From NCBI GenBank assembly GCA_900314125.1, contig OMUD01000123.1, forward strand, positions 1 through 32,939: a stretch of 32,939 bases of DNA, given 5' to 3'. Positions 12,490 to 32,915 of this stretch are shown here, piece by piece. The notes under the pieces were generated by a model. The model did not search any database. It had not been told where the DNA came from and worked only from the letters and a program-made list of their open reading frames with translations. Position 1 is the stretch's first letter. Every line of letters begins with the position of its first letter. Made by a program: the position numbers and the translations under genes. This DNA comes from an uncultured Prevotellaceae bacterium. Its GTDB lineage: Bacteria > Bacteroidota > Bacteroidia > Bacteroidales > Bacteroidaceae.

Positions 12490-12536
12490 CACCTTTAAAG
12501 AATTGTTTTCAATTCTGATTGCAAAAGCCATCATCC

Positions 12537-14411
12537 ATGAGCACCTACAACGATGAATATGAGAAATTGAGTCTTCTGGGCCAAGGTGCTTTCGCCAGCA
12601 TCTGGAAAGTGAGACATCGGAGGTTGGGCTATGTCCGTGCGCTCAAAGAATTGAACATGGGCATTGAAAATGAAGACTCGCCAGCCTTCATTTCCTTTCT
12701 CAATGAATGCGGGCTTCTGATGAGAATCGGAAACGGAGCTCATCCGGGAATCGTGAGGGTGTATCAGCCCAGGCTCATCAGCAACAAGGCAACAGTGGAG
12801 ATGGACTTTGTTGATGGTCTGACCATCAACGAGTATATCCGGGAAAAAATATTCGTAGGTTTTGATGAGGTCATGCGGTTCGTTCGTGAGGTGACCGATG
12901 CGCTCGCCTATTGCCATGTAGATGTTTACAAGGACATGATGAACCCGCTCGAAGACCAGCTGAAACGCAATCCTGACGATGCACGGCAGTTTATCATCAA
13001 TCAGGACGACGAGCAAAGATTGATTCAGAAATACGGAGTCGTGCATAATGACCTTCATTCCAACAACATCATGAGGAGGAACCGTGACGGACGGTTTGTG
13101 CTTCTCGACTTCGGACTCGCCATTCAGAACGGAAACTCCGTGAAAAGCAGCTCAAGGATGGATGGAGCTGTGGAATACAAGGCTCCTGAAAAATGGGACA
13201 ACGAGGAGTATATCACCACCATGTCAGACATCTACAGCCTCGGAATCCTCTTCTTTGAGATGCTGGCAGGAGCCGTGCCTTTCCCGTTCGGACAAAACCC
13301 TGCCACAGGGTTGGCAAACCTCGTCGGGATGATGAAGATGCACAAATATGCCGAAATCCCTGCTATCGAGCCGCTCAGAAAGAAGGCATTTGAACAGACT
13401 CATCCAGGACAGGCTTACGTGAAGGACTACCCCGACTGGCTTGAGCAAACAATAAGAAAATGTCTGGCAAAACGTCCTGAAGAGCGCTTCCATGACGCTA
13501 AGGAACTCCAGACCCACATCAACCAGTTCGACAATCAGCAGCAATCCCCAACGGCGCCACAACAGCAAATGCCCAAAGATGCATTGGAACAGCTGCTGAA
13601 AAGCTATATCTCACAAAAACCTGACATCAGCGCCAAGGAAATTCTTAACGCATTGCAGCCCATAGAGGAAAGACAAACAGACACACTGCATGCCGCACCG
13701 ATAACAAAAGACACTGCCAAAGCAGAAAAAGCGTATCCCAACATCACGACATTTACAGTGGGAGATATATCCTTCAACATGGTCAGGGTGGATGGCGGTA
13801 AATACACTATGGGTGCCACGGGAGAGACAGGAATCGGTGCCGGTGACGAGGAAAAACCACCTCACGAGGTGTTTGTAAGAACCTTCCTCATCGGACAGAC
13901 CCCAGTCACCCAGGAACTCTGGACTGCCGTGATGGGCAGCAACCCTTCAAAATACCAAGGGAAAGACCATCCAGTGGAAAGTGTGTCATGGAACGACTGC
14001 CAGGAGTTCGTCAAGCAGCTCAACCTGCTTACTGGGCAATCTTTCAGGTTGCCCAACGAAGAAGAATGGGAGTTTGCGGCTAGAGGAGGACTCCAGAGCC
14101 AGGGTTTCACTTTTGCTGGCAGCAACGACATCAGACAAGTGGCATGGTACGAAGCCAACAGTGGCATGACCCCACAGCCTGTAGCGACAAAAGCCCCTAA
14201 CGAACTGGGACTATACGACATGAGCGGCAACATTTTTGAATGGTGCCACAACAACTTCTACCGCTACGATACCCCTTCAAACCCCACAACGGGCAAAACC
14301 CGCAGAGGAGGAGGATGGAACAGCAGCCCCAAAAACTGCAGAGTATCCTTCCGCTACGACAACGAACCGGACAAACGGAGCCAAATTATCGGAATGAGAC
14401 TGGCAATTTGA
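12537..14411 (+). CDS. Soluble Ser/Thr protein kinase fused to a formylglycine-generating-enzyme-like (SUMF1) domain
   Basis: The N-terminal kinase (about residues 8-330) has a Gly-rich loop GQGAFAS (15-21), ATP-binding Lys37 in ALKE, catalytic Asp172 in HNDLHSNN, DFG at 191-193 and APEKWD, so it should be active. About 35 extra residues (DVYKDMMNPLEDQLKR...) lie just before the catalytic loop. A Gln/Pro-rich linker without a membrane segment leads to the SUMF1/FGE-sulfatase domain (about 405-624), with TPVTQELWTAVMG, PVESVSWNDC and RLPNEEEWEFAARGG. In true formylglycine-generating enzymes two cysteines lie five residues apart near the end; here only one (Cys601) is seen and the other position is Ser596, so the domain probably binds rather than oxidises. 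The start at 12537 is preferred over an in-frame TTG at 12519. The gene heads the FHA/SEDS-PBP cluster. Confidence 0.9.
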   Translation: MSTYNDEYEKLSLLGQGAFASIWKVRHRRLGYVRALKELNMGIENEDSPAFISFLNECGLLMRIGNGAHPGIVRVYQPRLISNKATVEMDFVDGLTINEYIREKIFVGFDEVMRFVREVTDALAYCHVDVYKDMMNPLEDQLKRNPDDARQFIINQDDEQRLIQKYGVVHNDLHSNNIMRRNRDGRFVLLDFGLAIQNGNSVKSSSRMDGAVEYKAPEKWDNEEYITTMSDIYSLGILFFEMLAGAVPFPFGQNPATGLANLVGMMKMHKYAEIPAIEPLRKKAFEQTHPGQAYVKDYPDWLEQTIRKCLAKRPEERFHDAKELQTHINQFDNQQQSPTAPQQQMPKDALEQLLKSYISQKPDISAKEILNALQPIEERQTDTLHAAPITKDTAKAEKAYPNITTFTVGDISFNMVRVDGGKYTMGATGETGIGAGDEEKPPHEVFVRTFLIGQTPVTQELWTAVMGSNPSKYQGKDHPVESVSWNDCQEFVKQLNLLTGQSFRLPNEEEWEFAARGGLQSQGFTFAGSNDIRQVAWYEANSGMTPQPVATKAPNELGLYDMSGNIFEWCHNNFYRYDTPSNPTTGKTRRGGGWNSSPKNCRVSFRYDNEPDKRSQIIGMRLAI

Positions 14412-14476
14412 CGCAAATTTTCTATGTTCTCTTTAGGAGACACGCAAATACTGACACCCACCAAAAACTTCCACCC

Positions 14477-15277
14477 ATGAGCATTTTCAAGAAAATATTC
14501 AGCCCTTATGCCGACGGCAAGAACGAGAATAGCGACAAGGCAGCCCCAGAGGAAAACGGAAAGTCGGAGATGCAAAAGAAATCATCAGCAAAAGCGCATA
14601 TCGACCTTGAGGAGCGAATTCTCGAGGCGGTGGTGGAAGCGGTGAAACCTCTCAGGGGAATGAAAGGCGGAGGAAGCCTCCGAATCCACACCTGCGACCC
14701 TTACTTCAGCACCGTCATTTCCGACGATGAGTTTCCGAGCAACCTGGCACTCGCATTCGACAATGAGGGCATGGAGGAATTTGGAAGAATGAAGGTGGCG
14801 GTGAGCACCGCCATGCCTCAAAACAAATCAGAAATGATTGAGGCCATTGAAGGAAAACTCTTCATCGCCATAGGTAAGAAAGAGGGACCGAAGACGATGA
14901 GAATAAGCATATTAGCAGAAGAACCCAATGATGCGCTCGAAGACAGTCCCATCCTCCTCGACAGTGCCGCCAAGCATCTGTTCCACATCGGAAGAGGGAA
15001 GCATCCCATCAACACCATGAGGCGGGAAAACGACATCGCCGTGGCTGAGCAATACAACACCGTAAGCTCTGCCCATGCCGACATCAAATACAAGAACGGG
15101 CGGTTCTTCCTCCAGGCAAAACCAGGAGGATGCCGGGCTGAAGGCGGCAGCGCCACCTTCATCCTGCGCGACGGACAGCCCAAAGAACTGCTCGACACCT
15201 TCAGCATGACCCTCCTGCGACACAACGACATCATTGAATTGGGAAAAACCGTAAGGCTGAAAGTGGAATTCACCTAA
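14477..15277 (+). CDS. FHA-domain protein
   Basis: This 266-residue soluble protein ends in a forkhead-associated domain, which binds phosphothreonine peptides. FHA marks are IGRGK (171-175), the phosphate-binding NTVSSAHADI (about 194-203) and the closing HNDIIELG (249-256). The first 40 residues are charged and probably disordered; residues 45-150 form a separate unrecognised domain. The frame stays open upstream into the kinase gene, but the ATG at 14477 is chosen because everything before it overlaps kinase coding sequence and an AGGAG lies upstream at 14434-14438. As neighbour of a Ser/Thr kinase it is a likely reader of that kinase's autophosphorylation or substrates, comparable in position to actinobacterial FhaB/FhaA. 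Confidence 0.85.
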   Translation: MSIFKKIFSPYADGKNENSDKAAPEENGKSEMQKKSSAKAHIDLEERILEAVVEAVKPLRGMKGGGSLRIHTCDPYFSTVISDDEFPSNLALAFDNEGMEEFGRMKVAVSTAMPQNKSEMIEAIEGKLFIAIGKKEGPKTMRISILAEEPNDALEDSPILLDSAAKHLFHIGRGKHPINTMRRENDIAVAEQYNTVSSAHADIKYKNGRFFLQAKPGGCRAEGGSATFILRDGQPKELLDTFSMTLLRHNDIIELGKTVRLKVEFT

Positions 15278-15311
15278 GTAACGATTTAATATCGATAAAA
15301 AAACTACAATC

Positions 15312-16280
15312 ATGAAACTGAAAGACCTATTTTTCCCCAGCGACAAAGACAACGGGTCGGCAAACATCACCCGGCAGGAAATGCTCGATGAGCTGTTCCA
15401 CCATTTCCGGCAGCGATTCGACGAAGAGACCACTACCGAGAGCATGCTCTTCCCAACATCCTTCTATGTCTATATGAACGAAGAGGATTTCAACCTCAGA
15501 TGCCAGTCGCTCGGAAATACCGTCACAGACGTGGTGAATCGAATCAACCGTTTTCTCAGAAGGAAAAAATTCAGATACTCCAACTATATTCCCCACTCCA
15601 AGTATTGGCTCTTCCAGTTCACCCCACTCTCTCCCGACACTTTCATCGAGGGAATGCCCGACGACGCATCGCAACTTCAGCCCAAACAACTCTACATCAT
15701 TTCCACCATCTACCCACAGGAAAATACTCAAAACGGAGGGGAGAGGATGGTGGGAACGATGCATGTGAAGGACTCCTTCCTCATCCACAACCTTGCCATC
15801 AACTCCAGGGCGCTCATGGGAATGGACATCGTTGGGCGCTACCGTTTCAAAGTGCCTTTCGCCGACTTTTCCAACATCAGGAAAACACCAGTCAGCATGG
15901 CTCAGCAGACCACAAATTCCTCTTTGCCGGTAGCTTCACTCACCATCAGACAGCAGCAGTATCAGTTCGTACTCCACCCCATGAACCATCATGCGCAGGT
16001 GACTGAAATCGAAACGCCCATGCTTCAAGTGGGAGGAATGGGATGCACACCGGGAATTCGAAACGGCATACAATGTGTAGGTATCAACAGCCAGCAGGTG
16101 GAGGACCCACACCTGCAGATACGGAGAAATCCCGACGGCACTTTCTCCATCATCGCATACGCACAAGTCAGACTCAACGAGATACCACTTGCTCCTAACT
16201 TATGGGTGCCGCTTCCCAACTTCTCGGTCATTCTCATCAACGACGAAATACAGCTCAATTTCAGAATCGACAAACCCTGA
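15312..16280 (+). CDS. FhaA-like protein: DUF3662-like N-terminus and divergent FHA-like C-terminus
   Basis: No family is certain for this 322-residue soluble protein. Residues 46-60 read LFPTSFYVYMNEEDF, close to the pattern P-x-x-Y-x-V-x-L-x-x-x-D-Y in the DUF3662 domain that starts actinobacterial FhaA; the following helical stretch also fits. The last 90 residues look like a worn FHA domain: LQVGG for the GR loop, NSQQVEDPHLQI for the SR-x-H motif, then RLNEIPL and NFSVILINDEIQLNF for the closing strands. The usual Arg and Ser phosphate ligands are missing, so it may bind protein without phosphate. The ATG at 15312 is 34 bases after the FHA gene, and the stop is 3 bases before the SEDS-PBP start, suggesting translational coupling to it. 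Confidence 0.6.
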   Translation: MKLKDLFFPSDKDNGSANITRQEMLDELFHHFRQRFDEETTTESMLFPTSFYVYMNEEDFNLRCQSLGNTVTDVVNRINRFLRRKKFRYSNYIPHSKYWLFQFTPLSPDTFIEGMPDDASQLQPKQLYIISTIYPQENTQNGGERMVGTMHVKDSFLIHNLAINSRALMGMDIVGRYRFKVPFADFSNIRKTPVSMAQQTTNSSLPVASLTIRQQQYQFVLHPMNHHAQVTEIETPMLQVGGMGCTPGIRNGIQCVGINSQQVEDPHLQIRRNPDGTFSIIAYAQVRLNEIPLAPNLWVPLPNFSVILINDEIQLNFRIDKP

Positions 16281-16283
16281 CGC

Positions 16284-19200
16284 ATGAATCTCAAAAAACT
16301 CATCATCCCCACCCTGGTAGCCGTGCTCATGATCATCGGATTCGTGAGCATCAAAAACGCGCATCAAGACTATTTCAGACAAGTGGAGCAGGCATACTCT
16401 GACCACCAGGCACTCAATCTCAAGAAGGGAGTGAGGGCAGAAGAACTGAAGGCATTCATCATCAGGAAAGGATATGCTGAAAGTACAGAAGACGCAGCAT
16501 TCATCGCCAGACACATCGCACAACGTCTCCATGAAGGAGAGCAGATGAAGAATCTCGGAGCGCTCAACACACCGGCATTCAGATGCAAGGCTGCTGAAGC
16601 GGAAATGCAGGGCGGAGATGAGTTGAGACGAAGAGTGGAAAACTCACGGGCTGCACTCGGATGGAACGAAACGGTTCAAAATTATTATGAAAAACAATCT
16701 GTGGCATCCACCAGCACTCAACAGGAGGGGGGAGCAACACTGACAGTGAGCGTGGTGGAGGAAGACACCACTCAGTATGGTTTCTTTACAAGAATATGGA
16801 ACACACTCACCGGTCGCCACCGCAAACCCGTGCAGGGAACACTGGTCAGGCTGAAAGAGCATTACTATGAAGGAGAAAAAGACAGCGAGGGGCATCTCAT
16901 CAACCCTCATGCTGCAGACACCGTCGTGGCCTACGCCATGACTGACCAAGAGGGAAAAGTGCAGTTCAACGTGATTGAAGGCCACTCCTACAGCGTGCTG
17001 CCCATCCGAAAAGACTTTGAATATGGTGCGTCACAAGGAACCACGGGTGGGAGCCTCAGCGGCGACAGAAAATTCCGATTCATACAGAAGCCACACACCA
17101 TCACCCTTTTCGCGCCCATTACCTACCAGCACCTGAAAGCCGATGGAATGCTGACGGTGAGGACACCACAGGAATTCAACAACATGATGGTCACGGACAT
17201 GCTCTTGTTCATCATCTGCTGGCTCGCTGCCTTCATCATCATGCATATCAGGAACAGACAGCCGGAATTATCGGCGGCACACATCATCGCATCCATCGCC
17301 ATGATGCTCACAGCTCTCAGTCTCATGATGATGTTTTCCATCACCCATCCACTCACCGACACCGCCACAGGAAACGAAACGACATGGGGAATCTGCATGG
17401 GAGTGGTGGCTATGACCATCCTGACCAACGTCAACATCACCTGGTTGCACCGACTCACCGAACAGAACCTGTTCGGATGGATAGCACGCCCATTCACTCA
17501 GAAACTGAATGCGGCAAAGATTCAGGAGAAGGATGCCGGTCCCCTCAAAATCATCGGATATTATGTCCGACTCATCTTGGCTTTCATTTGCCTACCGCTC
17601 GAAGGCTTGGCCAGACTCGCCAGCTGGATTGCTGATAAAACGGGAACCAAAACTCCCGAAGGAGCCGGCTATGCATTTGTGGCAGTGATGCTCATGTTCC
17701 TACTCTACCTCTTCGGCACCGGGCCTGAAGGAAGCGACGCAAAGGTGAATCTCTGGGGATTCCAACCCAGCGAAATAACAAAGCTCCTCATCGTCTTTTT
17801 CATGGCTGCATTCTTTGCCAAAAACGCCAAACGCATCCAAACATTCTCACGGCAGCCCGGACGATTCATGCTGAAGATGCAGGTGAAGACTGTAGCGTCA
17901 GTGGCGGTATGTCTCCTGATTCTCATCCTCATGTATCTCAAACTCAGCGACCTGGGACCAGCCTTGGTGGTCATCACCACCTTTGTGCTCATGTATGCCG
18001 TGGCACGTAAGGACTTTGTTGAACTCACCATCGGCACCGCTTCGTTCATCATTCTCCTGTGGATAGGAAGCGTCATCAATCCCGGCTCCACCACCACTCC
18101 ACTCCTCCTCGCCCTCCTTTGGTTTGTGGCTTGGATTGGAGGAGGGTGGCTCTGGAAACACCGCATATATGAAAGTGCCCTGTTCATGAACCTGCTCATC
18201 ACGGCATTCGTCTTCGGTGGCACGATCCTTTCCCAACTGGGAATGGCAGAGGGAGAACGGCTGGACAACAGGAGTGCCATGGCATGGAATGGAGTGTGGG
18301 ACAACAATGTGCCGGGAGGCGACCAGGTGGCACAAGGAATCTGGAGTCTCGCCGCGGGAGGGACAACAGGCCAGGGCATGGGTGAAGGCCACGCCAACCT
18401 GGTTCCTGCCTGCAACACCGACATGATATTCACCAGCATCGGAGAGACACTGGGATGGCTGGCGCTGGCGGTCATCGTCATCCTCTTCTTCATCATGCTC
18501 CACCATTCTCTCCTCATTGCCAGGAAAGCGGGAATGCCGTTTGCCTTCTTCCTCGTGTCAGGCATCGGAATCATCACGGCGGTGCAGTTCCTCGTCATCG
18601 TCACCGGCAGCACCGGCCTCATCCCGCTCACTGGAGTAACCCTCCCATTCCTGAGTTTCGGAAAGTCGGGAATCATCATGAATCTTGCTGCCACCGGCAT
18701 CATCTGCTCCGTGGCGAGAATGAAAGCCACGAGAAACCAGATGGCAGACATCAGGCAATACGACGGAGTGCTTTCTGCCGCCTGTCTTGCTTTCATCATT
18801 GTGGCGGTGGTCATACTCGCCACCACATTCAACTGTCAGGTGGTAAACCGCGACAAATTCATCCTCAAACCGGCCTATACCGCCAATCTCAACGGGGTGA
18901 GAATACAAGAATACAACCCACGAATCGCACTGTTAGTCAACCAGTTGCCGATGGGTGACGTGTATGACCGGAACGGATTGCTCCTCGCCACTTCCGACCC
19001 TCAGAAAATCAGCAAACTGGAGAACAAATACTCCGATGCGGGAATCAGCAGGAAGGAACTCGCCAGCATCACCCAAAGAAGGCTCAGGAGATACTATCCG
19101 TTCGCCGACAGACTCTTCTTCTTTACCGGTGACTTCAACACCAGAGTGCTGTGGAACAACAACGACCTCAACCCATACGGCTACATGGCTGAGAACAAGC

Positions 19201-20603
19201 ACCTCGCCACACTCAGGGGATTCGACAACACCGCTCGCGACGACAACGGGCACGCCATCCTGGACAGGGTGGAGAGCAGCACGGTGAAGGAAAGCCGCTT
19301 CCTCAAGCCATTGGGAAAAGAAGGAAGCGAGGACTTCGTACGACGTGACTACAGTGAGCTACTGCCCTTTTTGCTCAACGGAAACTTTGAAGAAGCAGCG
19401 CGCAACTGGAACCGCCATCAGGACATCACACTGTCGGTTGATGCCACCTTGCAGACTGCAATGCAGGAGAAAATGAGTGAAAACCAGTTTGTTGATTTCA
19501 AGCATTCGCTCAAACCAAAAATGAGGGCGTCAGTTGTGGTGGTGGACACCGACGACGGATCCGTGCTTTGCTCAGCCAACTATCCTCAGCCAAGTCAGGA
19601 AGAAATTCAGCGGCATGCCGACATCCCATATTATGAGCGGATTGAGGCAGACATGGCTGTGAAGGCGTATGCCGACCGCGACCTCGGACTCACCTACCAG
19701 ACCAAGCCAGGCTCAACAGCGAAAATCATGTCGGCCATGGCAGGATTCATGAAATACGGAAAAGAAATCATCCACACCACCTACATACTCAAACAGGGAG
19801 AGCGGATTTCCCACGCCTACGCCGACACCATCTCTCTCCGTGAAGCCATCGTGAGGTCGTCGAACAGTTTCTTCGTCAATTTCGTGCACGACAAGCAGCT
19901 CTACAGCCAGCTCGACACCATTTATCAGCTCTTTGGAGTGAACCTGCAGATTGACTGGTTCAAAGGCTACGACAGACGGAACCGATCCATCACCCCTTAC
20001 TTCTTTGATTTGGCTGACAACGACTCCATCCGTTCGCTCGAATTTTCGGAGGACATGGAATATCTGGCGAAGGCGGCGTATTCCAAATACGATGAGTATC
20101 AGGAGAAGAAGAAAGCCAACAAGAACTACGTGGAAAAAATGAGTGATCCAAAGCTTGGATGGACGACCTGCGGAAGTGCATGGGGACAGTATAACATCAA
20201 GGCTTCGCCCCTCAACATGGCACTCATGTCCGCCACCGTGGCGAACGATGGACTCTTCATCCCCGCCAAGTTCGTGATAAGCGAGCCATCGGCCAATGCC
20301 CCGAAAAGGTTGCTCAGCAGGGAGGTGGCAGGAGAGTTGAAAAACGCCATGGAAGCGGAGTCGGACAAGAACCTATTCAATATCAGGGGAATGGGCGGAA
20401 AAACAGGAACACCACAGCGAGTGTTCAACCACAAGCCAGTGAACGACGCATGGTACACCTTCTTCATCCCGAAACACGGAAAAACGGGTTATCTGGCCGT
20501 GGCACTCAGGATTGAGCGGAGCATGCTCAATTCCAAGTCTGCTGTGAAATACACCAAAGATGTGGTCCTGCCAATTCTGAAGCAAACGGGCTACATCCAA
20601 TGA
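16284..20603 (+). CDS. Natural SEDS glycosyltransferase-class B penicillin-binding protein fusion (RodA/FtsW-PbpA type)
   Basis: One 1439-residue chain should both polymerise and cross-link peptidoglycan. An N-terminal helix (7-23) leads to an extracytoplasmic region of about 280 residues including a beta-rich stretch (TDQEGKVQFNVIEG). The SEDS part follows with WGFQPSEITK (about 490-500), SDLGPALV, AGGTTGQGMGEG, NTDMIF with the probable catalytic Asp712, and TGVTLPFLSFGKSG. After a short cytoplasmic linker a new helix begins near 830, then the PBP part with YDRNG (about 893-897) and all three transpeptidase motifs: STAK near 1143, SSN near 1192 and KTGT near 1372. Both active sites appear intact. 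The start lies 3 bases after the FhaA-like gene. Separate RodA-PBP2 and FtsW-FtsI pairs are normally present elsewhere in Bacteroidetes, so this is probably accessory. Confidence 0.92.
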   Translation: MNLKKLIIPTLVAVLMIIGFVSIKNAHQDYFRQVEQAYSDHQALNLKKGVRAEELKAFIIRKGYAESTEDAAFIARHIAQRLHEGEQMKNLGALNTPAFRCKAAEAEMQGGDELRRRVENSRAALGWNETVQNYYEKQSVASTSTQQEGGATLTVSVVEEDTTQYGFFTRIWNTLTGRHRKPVQGTLVRLKEHYYEGEKDSEGHLINPHAADTVVAYAMTDQEGKVQFNVIEGHSYSVLPIRKDFEYGASQGTTGGSLSGDRKFRFIQKPHTITLFAPITYQHLKADGMLTVRTPQEFNNMMVTDMLLFIICWLAAFIIMHIRNRQPELSAAHIIASIAMMLTALSLMMMFSITHPLTDTATGNETTWGICMGVVAMTILTNVNITWLHRLTEQNLFGWIARPFTQKLNAAKIQEKDAGPLKIIGYYVRLILAFICLPLEGLARLASWIADKTGTKTPEGAGYAFVAVMLMFLLYLFGTGPEGSDAKVNLWGFQPSEITKLLIVFFMAAFFAKNAKRIQTFSRQPGRFMLKMQVKTVASVAVCLLILILMYLKLSDLGPALVVITTFVLMYAVARKDFVELTIGTASFIILLWIGSVINPGSTTTPLLLALLWFVAWIGGGWLWKHRIYESALFMNLLITAFVFGGTILSQLGMAEGERLDNRSAMAWNGVWDNNVPGGDQVAQGIWSLAAGGTTGQGMGEGHANLVPACNTDMIFTSIGETLGWLALAVIVILFFIMLHHSLLIARKAGMPFAFFLVSGIGIITAVQFLVIVTGSTGLIPLTGVTLPFLSFGKSGIIMNLAATGIICSVARMKATRNQMADIRQYDGVLSAACLAFIIVAVVILATTFNCQVVNRDKFILKPAYTANLNGVRIQEYNPRIALLVNQLPMGDVYDRNGLLLATSDPQKISKLENKYSDAGISRKELASITQRRLRRYYPFADRLFFFTGDFNTRVLWNNNDLNPYGYMAENKHLATLRGFDNTARDDNGHAILDRVESSTVKESRFLKPLGKEGSEDFVRRDYSELLPFLLNGNFEEAARNWNRHQDITLSVDATLQTAMQEKMSENQFVDFKHSLKPKMRASVVVVDTDDGSVLCSANYPQPSQEEIQRHADIPYYERIEADMAVKAYADRDLGLTYQTKPGSTAKIMSAMAGFMKYGKEIIHTTYILKQGERISHAYADTISLREAIVRSSNSFFVNFVHDKQLYSQLDTIYQLFGVNLQIDWFKGYDRRNRSITPYFFDLADNDSIRSLEFSEDMEYLAKAAYSKYDEYQEKKKANKNYVEKMSDPKLGWTTCGSAWGQYNIKASPLNMALMSATVANDGLFIPAKFVISEPSANAPKRLLSREVAGELKNAMEAESDKNLFNIRGMGGKTGTPQRVFNHKPVNDAWYTFFIPKHGKTGYLAVALRIERSMLNSKSAVKYTKDVVLPILKQTGYIQ

Positions 20604-20655
20604 CCGATTCGGAATAACCTCAAAGAACGACCCACATCCTTCGTCCGAAAATCCT

Positions 20656-20685
20656 AAAAAAGTGCTTTTTTAAGCACTTTTTTTT
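20656..20685 (+). terminator. Terminator of the kinase/FHA/SEDS-PBP cluster
   Basis: AAAAAGTGCTT, a four-base loop and AAGCACTTTTTTTT form a stem ending in a T run. The last T residues are shared with the TTTG element of the next promoter. Confidence 0.9.
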
Positions 20686-20713
20686 GATAATACAGCAAAA
20701 ACATTTAACTTTG
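20683..20713 (+). promoter_or_regulatory. Promoter of the DPP7-like peptidase gene
   Basis: TTTG (20683-20686), exactly 19 bases and TAACTTTG (20706-20713) match both elements. The TTTG overlaps the T run of the upstream terminator. Confidence 0.8.
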
Positions 20714-20775
20714 TTGGTTAATAGTGATAAAACGCATTTTTATCCCGAAAACTCAAAAAAACAAAATAGAACGAC

Positions 20776-23052: not shown

Positions 23053-25737
23053 ATGAAAAGGAGCATGAACTCAAAGAAGGTTCTGGCGGCTCTCATCCTT
23101 ATGGCTGGCTCGACCATGGCTTGGGCCAACGGAACAAAGACCGTCTTTCATCTGGATATCCAGAGAACTGCAGCGCAAACCACAGAGTCATCCTGTGCGG
23201 TCAACCCTAACGTGCTGGCCAACAAGCTGCATTGCAAAGTGAAACTGGAGGATGCACTGACCAAGAAAACCGTCAAGTGGCATTATGTCAATCCTTCTAA
23301 TGGAAGATATTCCAACAGTTCCACCATCTCTCCTTACGGCAACTACTTCAATGCCAACGGAATGGCGGTTTCTGGAGCCAACAAGGCGAAGATTCTCCAA
23401 TCTAAGTTCACTCTTACAGCCTTCTGCATCAACACCGAAGATGGAATGGTGGAAGAGGGAAAGACCTACAGTTGGAAGCAGGCTCTTATCAACACGGAAA
23501 CCAACGACACGGTGGACTTCCATTTCACCATGACCATCGGAGCTGAACAAAGCATGACTTCCGACATTCCGACGGTGAACCACAGAAAAGACCGCATCGA
23601 CGACTGGATGGCCGTTCCTTACCTGAAAGTGAACGACCAGCAGGCAGAAATCAACAACTGCGTGCAGGGAAATGTGGGCGATGACATCACCATCTCCCTC
23701 CAGCCGAAAAAAGAGGGTGACATCGTGAAGTTCAATGTGAAGGCACCTGACGGAAATACGCTGAAACCGACCAACAGTAAAGACTGCGTGATTCAGGACA
23801 TCAGCATGTCGGATGCCGGAGCCTACGAGCTCCAGGTGAGATACACACCCCAAGGAGGATCACAGACAGTTCAGATCGTATATGTGTACTTAGATGTGCA
23901 GGAACACCAAGGCGAATACTACGATTGGAAACAGCATACTCCATATTGGAGCTACAATTTCAGGGATGAGAATCCCGACGGATTCCCAATGCCGACAAAG
24001 AGCCACAACTTCACTAAGAAAGGCGGAGGAAAAGCCAACTGCGTGGAAGGTGAGTGGTGGTCAGTGTTCTGGGGCGACAACCTCAACTCCGTGGTGGGAA
24101 ACAACGACTACAACGCCATGACCAACATGGTGAAGAAATACGACACCGACTTCGCCTACATCAGGGACGTCATGGGATGGCCACCTGATATCAACGCGCG
24201 GATGGGATGGAAGTCGTTCGTCTATATCTTCGGTTCGGGACTCAGCAACGACAACGAGTCGCAGACCACCGAGGGTGGCTATCAAAGCTCCACCTATGTG
24301 GATGGACGTTCCTGGCCATGTGTATGGGCATCCTACTATCCAGTCAGCCGCTTCCGCGACGATGCCGACCGAAAATGGAACGATGGCGACTACCAGCGTG
24401 AGGCCATGATCCACGAGGGCATACACGCCACCTTCGCCGACATGGAGGGAGTCAAGCAGTCGGCTTGGTTCCACGAGGGAGGCAACGTGTGGCTGCAGAT
24501 GGCCATGAACGCCAAGCGCGACAACGTGTACGGCGAACCGGGATGGCTCGGAGTAGGCAACCTCATCTGCCCGTTCATGCCGATTGAGTGCTACTCAGGG
24601 TGGCTTCAAGACGGGTCGTTTGGAGGGCCAAGCGCCGAAGGTGTCAATATGTACAACAGCCAGGGAAGACAAGTCTGCACATGGCGCAACCTCATCGGAG
24701 GAGTGCAGTACGGAGAAGTGTTTCCGCTCTTCCTCGGAGAGGCAGTGGGCGATGGAGCAGTGCCTTGGATTTGGAGATACTGCAAGACCCGGGTGCTCGA
24801 AGGCATCGCATTGGGCAACAAGGCTGAGAACGTCGAAGGTATTGGCGACGAGGCCATGCGGCTGTTGGTCATGCAATACCGCGCTCGTCTCGCCACCATG
24901 GATTTCGGACGCTTTACCAAGGGATGCCGGAACCTGCTTGACAGCCGTTTCGGCAGCACGGTCAAAGCAGAATTTGAGCCACACTGGATTGATGTTGAGC
25001 CGTTCCAGCTCACACCTTACCAGACTCTTGAACCAAACGATGAGGAAGGATGGATGGCTCCCGACACCATCACCAACCCAGGATGGAGCGGTGGAAACAT
25101 CATTCCTATCCATGTGGCTGAAACGGGATGCGAGGTGTTCTTCCGTCCAGAGGACGACAACATGATGGCGCAACTCTGCTACAGGACGAAAAGCGGAGAA
25201 ACCTATTACAGCCAGCCTGTCACCTGCGGAAAGATGAAACTCTCCTGGACCGACAGCAACAGCCCTGCCAACGGAGTGGTGTTCGCAGTGGTGGCCAACA
25301 CTGATTACATCTACACCGGCGAGGAGCAACGCAAAAAGCACTGGGACTACAGGCTCAAGCTTGGCGAAGGCGCACTCGCTCCTGCATCTAAGGATATCAG
25401 ATGGTACTTCTATGAGCGCACCCTCACCGACCCTGACTTCGCCACGGGAATTGAGCAGGTGCAAACCGACATGGAAGGAAACGGTCCAAAGGAACCGGTC
25501 ATCAGGATTCTCTCCGGAGCGCTCCGTAGCGGAGGACAGATTGTACTTGACCTCAACGGCATAGAGCCAAAGAATGTGGTGGCACACCTTGTGGGCGTCA
25601 GCGGCGTGCTCATCGACGAGCAGCAGGTGAGCGACGCATCCACCATCCAGCTCCCTTCAAACCTGAGAAAAGGCATGTATATCCTCGCCTTGCGCCACAA
25701 CGGAAAGACCGACTCCTTCAAAGTGTATGTGGAATAG
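23053..25737 (+). CDS. Secreted HExxH metallopeptidase-like protein with Ig-like domain and probable type IX sorting tail
   Basis: I place this 894-residue protein with the gluzincin-like secreted proteins of the DUF6055 kind, without certainty. A signal peptide (VLAALILMAGSTMAWA) is followed by beta-rich sequence and an Ig-like module (about 200-285, ending DISMSDAGAYELQVRY). The central domain has HEGIH at 454-458, an HExxH zinc site, and WFHEGG with Glu475 as plausible third ligand. The end (RKGMYILALRHNGKTDSFKVYVE, split by family motifs into a G-Y-I-L strand and a final K-V strand) resembles type A type IX secretion tails, implying export to the cell surface. Start may be 23053 or the in-frame ATG at 23065. 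Next to a DPP7-like exopeptidase, it fits protein or glycoprotein degradation. No promoter match is seen; a small hairpin lies at 22963-22990. Confidence 0.7.
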   Translation: MKRSMNSKKVLAALILMAGSTMAWANGTKTVFHLDIQRTAAQTTESSCAVNPNVLANKLHCKVKLEDALTKKTVKWHYVNPSNGRYSNSSTISPYGNYFNANGMAVSGANKAKILQSKFTLTAFCINTEDGMVEEGKTYSWKQALINTETNDTVDFHFTMTIGAEQSMTSDIPTVNHRKDRIDDWMAVPYLKVNDQQAEINNCVQGNVGDDITISLQPKKEGDIVKFNVKAPDGNTLKPTNSKDCVIQDISMSDAGAYELQVRYTPQGGSQTVQIVYVYLDVQEHQGEYYDWKQHTPYWSYNFRDENPDGFPMPTKSHNFTKKGGGKANCVEGEWWSVFWGDNLNSVVGNNDYNAMTNMVKKYDTDFAYIRDVMGWPPDINARMGWKSFVYIFGSGLSNDNESQTTEGGYQSSTYVDGRSWPCVWASYYPVSRFRDDADRKWNDGDYQREAMIHEGIHATFADMEGVKQSAWFHEGGNVWLQMAMNAKRDNVYGEPGWLGVGNLICPFMPIECYSGWLQDGSFGGPSAEGVNMYNSQGRQVCTWRNLIGGVQYGEVFPLFLGEAVGDGAVPWIWRYCKTRVLEGIALGNKAENVEGIGDEAMRLLVMQYRARLATMDFGRFTKGCRNLLDSRFGSTVKAEFEPHWIDVEPFQLTPYQTLEPNDEEGWMAPDTITNPGWSGGNIIPIHVAETGCEVFFRPEDDNMMAQLCYRTKSGETYYSQPVTCGKMKLSWTDSNSPANGVVFAVVANTDYIYTGEEQRKKHWDYRLKLGEGALAPASKDIRWYFYERTLTDPDFATGIEQVQTDMEGNGPKEPVIRILSGALRSGGQIVLDLNGIEPKNVVAHLVGVSGVLIDEQQVSDASTIQLPSNLRKGMYILALRHNGKTDSFKVYVE

Positions 25738-30880: not shown

Positions 30881-31429
30881 ATGAAACTTTCACCATATAT
30901 AACCGAACTCTTGAGAGAGAAGTCGGGTAATGAAATCCGGCTCTCTGGCCATTGTGAACGCCTGGCACTCGATGTGGAGGCTGCCACAGGCGAGCACATT
31001 GGAGTCAACACCATGAAGCGGTTGCTGGGGTTCATTGCCGACGAGCGTGTCCCACGCACAACAACTCTTGATATCATTGCCCGTTATCTTGGATACGACA
31101 ACTGGGATGCTCTGCGGCTGATTGATGAGAACTGCAGCAATTCTGCGTTTGACGACCGCGATGAATATTTGGCTTGCTATATGGAAATCGGTCAGCAAGT
31201 GGCCATCTCCTATCCACCCAATCGGAAGCTGACCATCGAAAATCTGGGTGACAACCATTTCCGTGTGACTGATAGTGAGAACAGCAAGTTGCTGAAAGGC
31301 GACCTGCTGACACTGACGCATATCGTCCGCAACTACCCCCTGCTGGTAGCCGAAGTTATCAGAAACGGCGAGAATCTGGGAGCATTCACTGCGGGAAAAG
31401 CACAGGGCATTGACTTTGAACTCCTATGA
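30881..31429 (+). CDS. Conserved-looking small protein of unknown function, partner of the following kinase
   Basis: I do not recognise this 182-residue protein. The first 85 residues are helical and resemble a compact DNA-binding-like bundle (REKSGNEIRLSGHCERLA, TMKRLLGFIADERVPRTTTLDIIARYLGYDNW), but no standard helix-turn-helix motif can be fixed. The second half (about 105-182) is beta-rich and ends GIDFELL; it could be a small OB- or SH3-like barrel. There is no signal peptide or membrane segment. The start lies 10 bases after the guaA terminator, and the transmembrane kinase begins 52 bases after the stop, so the two are probably one unit and the protein may be a regulator or substrate of the kinase. 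Confidence 0.7.
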   Translation: MKLSPYITELLREKSGNEIRLSGHCERLALDVEAATGEHIGVNTMKRLLGFIADERVPRTTTLDIIARYLGYDNWDALRLIDENCSNSAFDDRDEYLACYMEIGQQVAISYPPNRKLTIENLGDNHFRVTDSENSKLLKGDLLTLTHIVRNYPLLVAEVIRNGENLGAFTAGKAQGIDFELL

Positions 31430-31481
31430 ACTTTTTTCATCGAGTAACAAAAAGCCTAAAAAACAAAGTCAGAAAAAAACT

Positions 31482-32915
31482 ATGGACAGCACATCTTCGT
31501 TTTCAAAAGTAAGGCAGCCCTTCCCCGACGCAGAACTGCTGAAGGTCGGTGGCAGCACATGTGAGTGCTACCGAGTGAGGCTTTACGGTAAGCTGCACTT
31601 CTTGAAACGATTGAAGCCCGAACTGCGGACAAATCCACAATACGTGGCTGCCATGGAAAAAGAGTTCCTCATGGGCTACCAGCTCGACCATCCTCATTTG
31701 GTCCGTTATGCCGCCAGAACCGATGACGGCATCCTGATGGACTATGTGGATGGTGAGACGCTCAACCTCTTTATTGAGCATCATCCCGACTATTTTCAAA
31801 AACATGAAAACGCAGACCGATTCCTACACCAGTTGCTCAGCGTCGTCGACTATCTACACAGCCATCAGATTGTCCACCTCGACCTCAAGCCCGGAAACAT
31901 CCTCATCACCCGCATTGGACATGATGTGAAACTCACCGACCTGGGCTACAGCTATGCCGACTGCTACACCGACACAACGGGACGTACTGATAAATATGCC
32001 GCACCTGAGCAACTACGTGGAGAACCTGTCGATGCCCGTACCGACATCTATGCCATCGGACGTATTCTCCAAACGCTGCCTTGTGCTCCTAAATATGATC
32101 ATATCTCTCATAGGTGTACGGCTGCAGATCCATCCAAACGTTTCCAAAGTGTGGCGGAAATGGAGGCTGCCATCAGCCGAAAACGCCCTCACTGGTTGAC
32201 GGTTGTCTTGTCAACAGCTGCGTTGTTGGCTGTCCTTCTCTTTCTCTGGAATCCGTTCCGCCATGCTGAAACACCATCCGCACAGGTGCCTGCCGCCAAT
32301 GACTCCTTGCTTGTATCACAAGAGCAGATGCCTCAGCCGTCAATATCCCCGTCAGAACAGCAACCGGCACCCACTGTGACAGATCTGGTTGCAAACCAAC
32401 AAAACATCCCCAAAGGTGAGCTTACGAAGACAGTGAATATGGAAGAGTCCAGTTCTTCTGCAAAATCTTATGGTCAGACAGCCCCTTCCTCACCTGCCCA
32501 ATCTATAACGCCAACAGTCCAAGCAACACCGTCTCAATCTCATAGCCAGGCAACACCATCCACACCAGCTCAATCGGAGTCCTCCGTGGCCGGTACTCAA
32601 TCACATAAAGCGGAATCTTCAGCTGCCGATTTAGCGAGTCTGCATCGCCTGCTTGACAATGCCATAAGACCCATATTCGAAGAGTACCTCGGAGCCTATA
32701 AGAATAGGGACTATCATCATCTGGACAAAGAAGAACTAAAAGAATATACAGAAAAACATTCAGCTTATCAACGGGCCTGCTTGAATAAGTTTAATGAGTT
32801 ATGGAAAACCTATCAGCATCAGTATGACAAGGAATTGTTTTATGCTGAAGGCTGGAAAACACACGACTCTTATGACTCACTAACGTTCCTTCCCTCAAGA
32901 TTATCCCATAAATAA
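31482..32915 (+). CDS. Transmembrane Ser/Thr protein kinase with Ser/Thr/Pro-rich extracytoplasmic region
   Basis: The 477-residue protein has a cytoplasmic kinase domain (about 15-235), one membrane helix (about 238-256) and a periplasmic region of some 220 residues. Catalytic Asp134 sits in HLDLKPGN and the metal-binding Asp in DLG (about 153) instead of DFG. APEQ and DIYAIG are present, and Lys42 (FLKRLK) is the likely ATP ligand. The nucleotide loop is unusual: VGGSTCECYRV lacks the normal glycine pattern. The outer region is rich in Ser, Thr, Gln, Pro and Ala up to about 385, then becomes helical and charged, with no PASTA repeats. The start at ATG 31482 is preferred because the longer frame upstream overlaps the 182-residue gene. 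The distal part reads more AT-rich than neighbouring genes. Confidence 0.85.
   Translation: MDSTSSFSKVRQPFPDAELLKVGGSTCECYRVRLYGKLHFLKRLKPELRTNPQYVAAMEKEFLMGYQLDHPHLVRYAARTDDGILMDYVDGETLNLFIEHHPDYFQKHENADRFLHQLLSVVDYLHSHQIVHLDLKPGNILITRIGHDVKLTDLGYSYADCYTDTTGRTDKYAAPEQLRGEPVDARTDIYAIGRILQTLPCAPKYDHISHRCTAADPSKRFQSVAEMEAAISRKRPHWLTVVLSTAALLAVLLFLWNPFRHAETPSAQVPAANDSLLVSQEQMPQPSISPSEQQPAPTVTDLVANQQNIPKGELTKTVNMEESSSSAKSYGQTAPSSPAQSITPTVQATPSQSHSQATPSTPAQSESSVAGTQSHKAESSAADLASLHRLLDNAIRPIFEEYLGAYKNRDYHHLDKEELKEYTEKHSAYQRACLNKFNELWKTYQHQYDKELFYAEGWKTHDSYDSLTFLPSRLSHK

Follow-up and report, generated by a model that had tools for sequence, protein, structure and literature searches.

How did a gut-type, Gram-negative bacterium of the Bacteroidota come to carry, side by side, the kinds of genes that make up the growth-control cluster of Actinobacteria, and what might such a set do? 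The question is raised by positions 12537-20603 of contig OMUD01000123.1 from an uncultured Prevotellaceae bacterium (assembly GCA_900314125.1); the whole stretch analyzed, positions 1 to 32,939, is called the window below. Here a Ser/Thr kinase gene is followed by genes for two FHA proteins, called FHAB and FHAA, and for one protein in which a SEDS polymerase is joined to a class B penicillin-binding protein (PBP). With a probability of roughly two in three, these genes represent a single copy of a module conserved in Bacteroidota, which comprises an accessory peptidoglycan synthase, with SEDS and PBP in one polypeptide, together with its own phospho-signalling set, and which shares its ancestry with a cluster of Actinobacteria and some Firmicutes. 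The pknB-fhaA cluster has been reported in Actinobacteria and in a subset of Firmicutes (PMC6554272), and SEDS-PBP single open reading frames (ORFs) are known to exist (PMC10449877). No account of the Bacteroidota module was found in the literature searched, the coverage of which was incomplete.

The four intact ORFs lie on the + strand in the order kinase-SUMF1, FHAB, FHAA, SEDS-PBP, with gaps of 65, 34 and 3 bases. Gene calls and domains are given from Pfam scans and ORF translations of the window proteins; these agree with the gene limits and spacing described in an earlier note on this DNA. The features are the following:

12490-20775, no strand assigned: extent of the insert, from the flippase end (12489) to the dpp7 start (20776), by comparison with five congeners
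12537-14411, + strand: Ser/Thr kinase with a C-terminal SUMF1/FGE-like domain; ATG start (Pfam, motifs)
14477-15277, + strand: FHAB, a conserved N-terminal domain followed by an FHA domain with the canonical phosphothreonine (pThr)-binding motif; ATG start (Pfam)
15312-16280, + strand: FHAA, an FhaA_N-like N-terminal domain and a C-terminal FHA fold; ATG start (family profile, model)
16284-20603, + strand: SEDS-PBP fusion, 1439 aa (Pfam, motifs)
16353-17183, + strand: N-terminal domain of the fusion, predicted periplasmic, about residues 24-300, partly Ig-like
17661-18752, + strand: SEDS (RodA-type) core, residues 460-823 (Pfam, motif, tree)
19530-20558, + strand: transpeptidase domain of the fusion (Pfam, motifs)
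20656-20683, + strand: intrinsic terminator downstream of the module (folding)

The module and its neighbours in Bacteroidota

Stretches of 20 kb around fusion genes were annotated by means of profiles built up from genes of the window. A locus search with a single protein found no relatives, and a search with a two-sequence alignment found two Prevotellaceae loci. The fusion is rare. Within the family it occurs in 2 of 151 genomes, within the order in 2 of 393 under a stricter cut-off, and across the phylum in 15 of 395; all three counts include the window's own genome. Both FHAA and FHAB stand beside the fusion in all 18 loci where its N-terminus is complete; 15 of them have a kinase close by, and in 14 a PP2C phosphatase is adjacent or fused, the kinase being absent in L080-L082 and the PP2C in the same three loci and in the window. 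The genes that the earlier note saw together are thus conserved neighbours, so that the outcome which that note named as refuting its reading did not occur, and because they recur in distant genomes their grouping is not due to chance. Of the 395 genomes, a reciprocal search with an FHAA profile, built from module members, picked out precisely the 15 that carry the fusion; no other match in the sample reached 1e-10.

The general scheme of the module is FHAA, PP2C, SEDS::PBP, FHAB and one or more Ser/Thr kinases, but the order of the genes varies. Typically it is kinase-FHAA-PP2C-SEDS::PBP-FHAB-kinase, as in L073-L077, or FHAA-PP2C-kinase-kinase-SEDS::PBP-FHAB, as in L071; the whole module is annotated, in the L071 order, on the Spirosoma oryzicola plasmid NZ_CP089545.1 (L094 6009-16565). 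The arrangements in the window, G045 (L036) and G514 (L041), all Bacteroidales, correspond to rotations of a single circle of SEDS, kinase, FHAB, FHAA and PP2C, in which the PP2C slot is empty in the window. These rotated orders hint at a circular intermediate or at duplication and deletion.

In the window the module is an 8-kb insert. The genes for ruvB, the polysaccharide flippase and dpp7 are neighbours in five congeners that lack the module at this position, and in the window the module sits precisely between the last two; three further congeners have different genes after the flippase. Neither a direct repeat of at least 9 bases nor a tRNA nor unusual G+C marks the ends of the insert, which therefore bear no mobile-element signature. 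The G+C content at third codon positions (GC3) of the module genes is close to that of the neighbouring genes. Separate, additional SEDS genes were present in 12 of the 12 module genomes checked, and the RodA and FtsW of these genomes form their own clades apart from the fusion. This bears out the accessory character that had been proposed for the module.

The fusion matches the Pfam families FTSW_RODA_SPOVE (3.4e-37) and Transpeptidase (4.7e-17). Its predicted layout is a first transmembrane (TM) helix, a periplasmic domain of which part is Ig/CarboxypepD_reg-like, further TM helices, the SEDS polymerase and the class B PBP; in relatives, too, the N-terminal domain is partly Ig/CarboxypepD_reg-like. 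The SEDS TD motif and the SxxK, SxN and KTG motifs are invariant across 19 fusions. In the window the transpeptidase motifs are intact (SxxK, S1144-K1147; SxN, S1192-N1194; KTG, K1373), and the Asp of the TD motif is D713, which we take to be the SEDS catalytic residue. Profile searches of the PDB matched generic FHA domains and PBPs and nothing closer. In two distant lineages a PP2C domain stands at the front of a PP2C-SEDS-PBP triple fusion (L040 9068-13984 and L084 8261-12415). In a second SEDS-PBP fusion of G668 (L085 5165-9088) no N-terminal domain was recognised, and it has no FHA neighbours.

Ancestry of the polymerase, the FHA proteins and the kinase

The earlier note had left the choice between an independent origin and an old transfer followed by rebuilding. 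Comparison loci were taken from plasmid-collection records of Nocardia, Tsukamurella, Nonomuraea, Actinomyces oris and Arthrobacter. The order annotated in A. oris is DUF3662/FHA, FHA, PP2C, RodA, PBP2, kinase, PASTA kinase, and that in Nocardia is FhaA_N plus FHA, FHA, PP2C, RodA, PbpA and two kinases. The kinds of parts that make up the actinobacterial cluster, namely kinase, FhaA-type protein, second FHA protein, PP2C, RodA and, in the place of PbpA, a class B transpeptidase, occur across the relatives of the window's module, in keeping with the likeness drawn in that note.

In a SEDS tree of 53 rows the SEDS halves of the fusions form one clade, which is joined with the actinobacterial pkn-cluster RodA and with Monoglobus RodA (100/99) and lies apart from native Bacteroidota RodA and FtsW, from E. 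coli and Listeria and from Tsukamurella FtsW. Forcing the fusion SEDS together with native RodA (p 0.000118) or with FtsW (p 0.000305) was rejected in both cases. A grouping of the transpeptidase half with FtsI was also rejected.

The second line of evidence comes from FHAA. The window protein has no significant Pfam match of its own; in its model the C-terminal part adopts an FHA fold. The combination of FhaA_N (PF12401, DUF3662) and FHA, which is the architecture of FhaA, is matched by 5 of the 18 FHAA members, all deep-branching, with a best value of 4.9e-6; the FHAA of L080 scores 26.5 bits against PF12401, for which the curated cut-off is 25. Among 14 control genomes FhaA_N was found in Corynebacterium glutamicum only, and every genome of the phylum sample in which it turned up carries the fusion. 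Comparison of profiles linked the window FHAA with the deep members at 98.7% over the full length and at 80% for the N-domain alone. A VIA-align comparison of FHAA matched the FHA domain alone, the FHAA profile matched one Nocardia FhaA weakly and in the FHA part only (hhalign), and direct comparison of Bacteroidia FHAA N-domains with actinobacterial FhaA gave no confident match. The link between the window FHAA and FhaA_N is therefore transitive, through the family.

Since the SEDS half belongs to the pkn-cluster RodA lineage, some members of the FHAA family carry FhaA_N and the module of the window is an insertion, shared ancestry or transfer with rebuilding is favoured over an independent origin. 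Judged from these comparisons, the polymerase and FhaA would share their ancestry with the pkn/fha/pstP/rodA/pbpA cluster, and the kinase looks exchanged.

The window kinase matches Pkinase (5.9e-35, about residues 3-335) and FGE-sulfatase/SUMF1 (1.9e-41; domain at residues 414-623) and has the catalytic K, HND, DFG and APE; K, HxD, DFG and APE-type motifs are also present in the module kinases with readable sequence. Its kinase domain is 58% identical to that of the module kinase of G045. It has no predicted TM helix and carries SUMF1 instead, and most related kinases, the orthologues of G045 and G514 included, have a single TM helix after the kinase domain. A soluble SUMF1 kinase, as described in the earlier note, is thus not typical of the module. 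SUMF1-kinases also adjoin the module of L040, with SUMF1 domains that share 41-44% identity with the one in the window. Two further module kinases, L079 14653-16041 and L084 603-3116, have other C-terminal domains, FHA in one and WD40 repeats in the other.

Several points weigh against a common ancestry and function of the module. The SEDS grouping involves long branches and few outside phyla. For the transpeptidase half, neither a grouping with PbpA (p 0.18) nor one with native PBP2 (p 0.13) is rejected. L080-L082, the loci without nearby kinase and PP2C, are deep members of one genus group, and the profile behind the co-occurrence of FHAA and the fusion came from the module itself. The FHAA proteins of Bacteroidia have lost their pThr-binding residues. 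Module kinases fall into several lineages of the kinase tree, with no special tie to PknA/PknB, and those that were scanned all lack a PASTA domain. An exchange of the kinase is therefore probable.

An alternative is that a look-alike cluster was assembled independently from Bacteroidota RodA and PBP2 and from generic FHA, kinase and PP2C genes. The kinases, which are neither specifically PknA/PknB-like nor equipped with PASTA, and the transpeptidase half, which could still group with native PBP2, would fit such an assembly. It is unlikely, however, because the SEDS half is neither native RodA nor native FtsW and groups with pkn-cluster RodA, and because the module contains FhaA_N, which among the controls is otherwise confined to Corynebacterium.

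A possible phospho-switch

Shared ancestry raises the question of how the synthase might be controlled. Phospho-regulation of the synthase, together with all the signalling steps below, their direction and the occasions on which the synthase is used, is inferred; the switch is proposed because the genes are linked, PP2C is fused to the synthase in two loci, the motifs are intact and mycobacteria offer a precedent (PMC6554272). Targets of phosphorylation by the kinase would be the synthase, the kinase itself or one of the FHA partners. On binding phosphothreonine, FHAB would change where the SEDS polymerase and the transpeptidase tethered to it are placed or how active they are, and PP2C would reverse the phosphorylation. 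FHAA might have a structural role as a partner, its reading of pThr having been given up in Bacteroidia.

The FHA sequences agree with such a division of roles. The FHA match of FHAB is above the Pfam cut-off (6.9e-05), and its pThr motif in the window is IGRG...SSAH; across 18 members, including the window, the G and SxxH columns are invariant and the R is nearly so. In the FHAA of Bacteroidia, the window included (VGG, EDPH), the canonical GR/SxxH combination is lost, and the deep members retain it. As FHAB keeps the motif throughout and Bacteroidia FHAA has lost it, FHAB is the likelier phospho-reader. The resemblance to FhaA claimed in the earlier note therefore stands at the level of the family, through FhaA_N in 5 of 18 members and the profile link, and does not extend to pThr binding in Bacteroidia.

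The phosphatase step is less regular. The window module has no PP2C gene; the reported lack of a PstP-type phosphatase is correct for the window and fails for most relatives, PP2C being adjacent or fused in the 14 loci counted above. Unlike the window, the congener G045 has PP2C beside the fusion. The PP2C active-site motifs are intact in module members. Only two PP2C genes were found in the window's genome, both on contig C59 and both of other subfamilies than the module PP2C. They belong to a cluster (L045, G000:C59, 471-9766) of PP2C, FHA with a zinc ribbon, caspase-like C14 peptidase, FHA, PP2C, VWA and kinase genes, which resembles conflict or stress signalling loci. Because the assembly is 85% complete, a module-type PP2C may have been missed. 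In the window the phosphatase might thus act in trans, from the C59 candidates or from an unassembled part of the genome, or the switch might work without dedicated reversal.

Taken together, it is possible, and proposed here tentatively, that a transferred and condensed actinobacterial growth-control cluster forms a self-contained, phospho-switched synthase beside the native Rod and division machines, and that the switch, with PP2C covalently attached in some lineages, works on the synthase itself or on the complex directly around it.

Alternatively, the kinase, FHA and PP2C proteins might serve other signalling, such as conflict or stress responses, with SEDS-PBP as an effector or passenger, for example in wall repair after envelope attack. 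The module of L040 adjoins further FHA, PP2C and kinase-SUMF1 genes, the window's own genome has the PP2C-FHA-caspase-VWA-kinase cluster on C59, and one module lies on the Spirosoma plasmid. This explanation is nonetheless quite improbable, since FHAA, FHAB and SEDS-PBP stay together in 18 of 18 loci and the C59 cluster is separate, with PP2C of different subfamilies. That the window copy is a decaying remnant with no working switch, its PP2C lost though present in G045, its kinase sensor replaced by SUMF1 and left without a TM helix, and its FhaA reader dead through lost FHA residues, is very unlikely, because all window ORFs are intact with complete catalytic motifs, the residue loss is common to Bacteroidia members and GC3 is near that of the neighbouring genes.

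Comparison with known systems, and the rest of the window

The module resembles the actinobacterial fhaA-fhaB-pstP-rodA-pbpA-pknA-pknB cluster of Mycobacterium and relatives (PMC6554272) in grouping an FhaA-type protein, a second FHA protein, PP2C, a RodA-lineage SEDS, a class B PBP and a Ser/Thr kinase. It differs in that SEDS and PBP form one polypeptide with a new N-terminal domain, PASTA is absent, the FhaA pThr site is lost (in Bacteroidia), the module is accessory to native RodA and FtsW, the gene order is partly permuted and PP2C is missing in the window. A Clostridia locus on a Monoglobus plasmid (L126) likewise has FHA beside RodA and PbpA, with its RodA in the same supported group, but RodA and PbpA are separate and no kinase, PP2C or FhaA_N gene is annotated in the stretch examined. 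SEDS-PBP fusions on Rhodococcus plasmids (L095 7077-9902, L125 3477-6317) also join polymerase and transpeptidase in one chain. They lie elsewhere in the SEDS and PBP trees, have no annotated FHA or kinase neighbours and no match to the N-terminal domain; by their sequences, they are of separate origin. In Firmicutes, PASTA kinases of the PrkC/StkP/PknB type and their PP2C partners are tied to wall synthesis; the module differs from these in the lack of PASTA in the kinases scanned and in the direct coupling of its genes to a synthase.

The action of mycobacterial kinases and FHA proteins on a SEDS-PBP synthase is hard to dissect, as the cluster is bound to growth and division. The Bacteroidota module is compact, accessory and occasionally plasmid-borne, and its hosts keep their own RodA and FtsW; it can therefore be removed and rebuilt. 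The PP2C-SEDS-PBP fusions suggest that dephosphorylation probably takes place at the synthase complex. The module extends the cluster of Actinobacteria and some Firmicutes (PMC6554272) to the Gram-negative phylum Bacteroidota.

The terminator placed after the last gene in the earlier note was found by folding as a 12-bp stem (-15.4 kcal/mol, z -6.3) followed by a U-run. A consensus terminator scan did not list this hairpin, probably because the stem is A/T-rich. Downstream of dpp7, positions 23053-25737 encode an 894-aa protein of no Pfam family. Positions 30881-32915 hold two overlapping genes: one encodes a 182-aa protein of unknown family, and the other, the start of which it overlaps, a further Ser/Thr kinase with 501 aa, one TM helix, DLG in place of DFG and a low GC3 of 48.6%.

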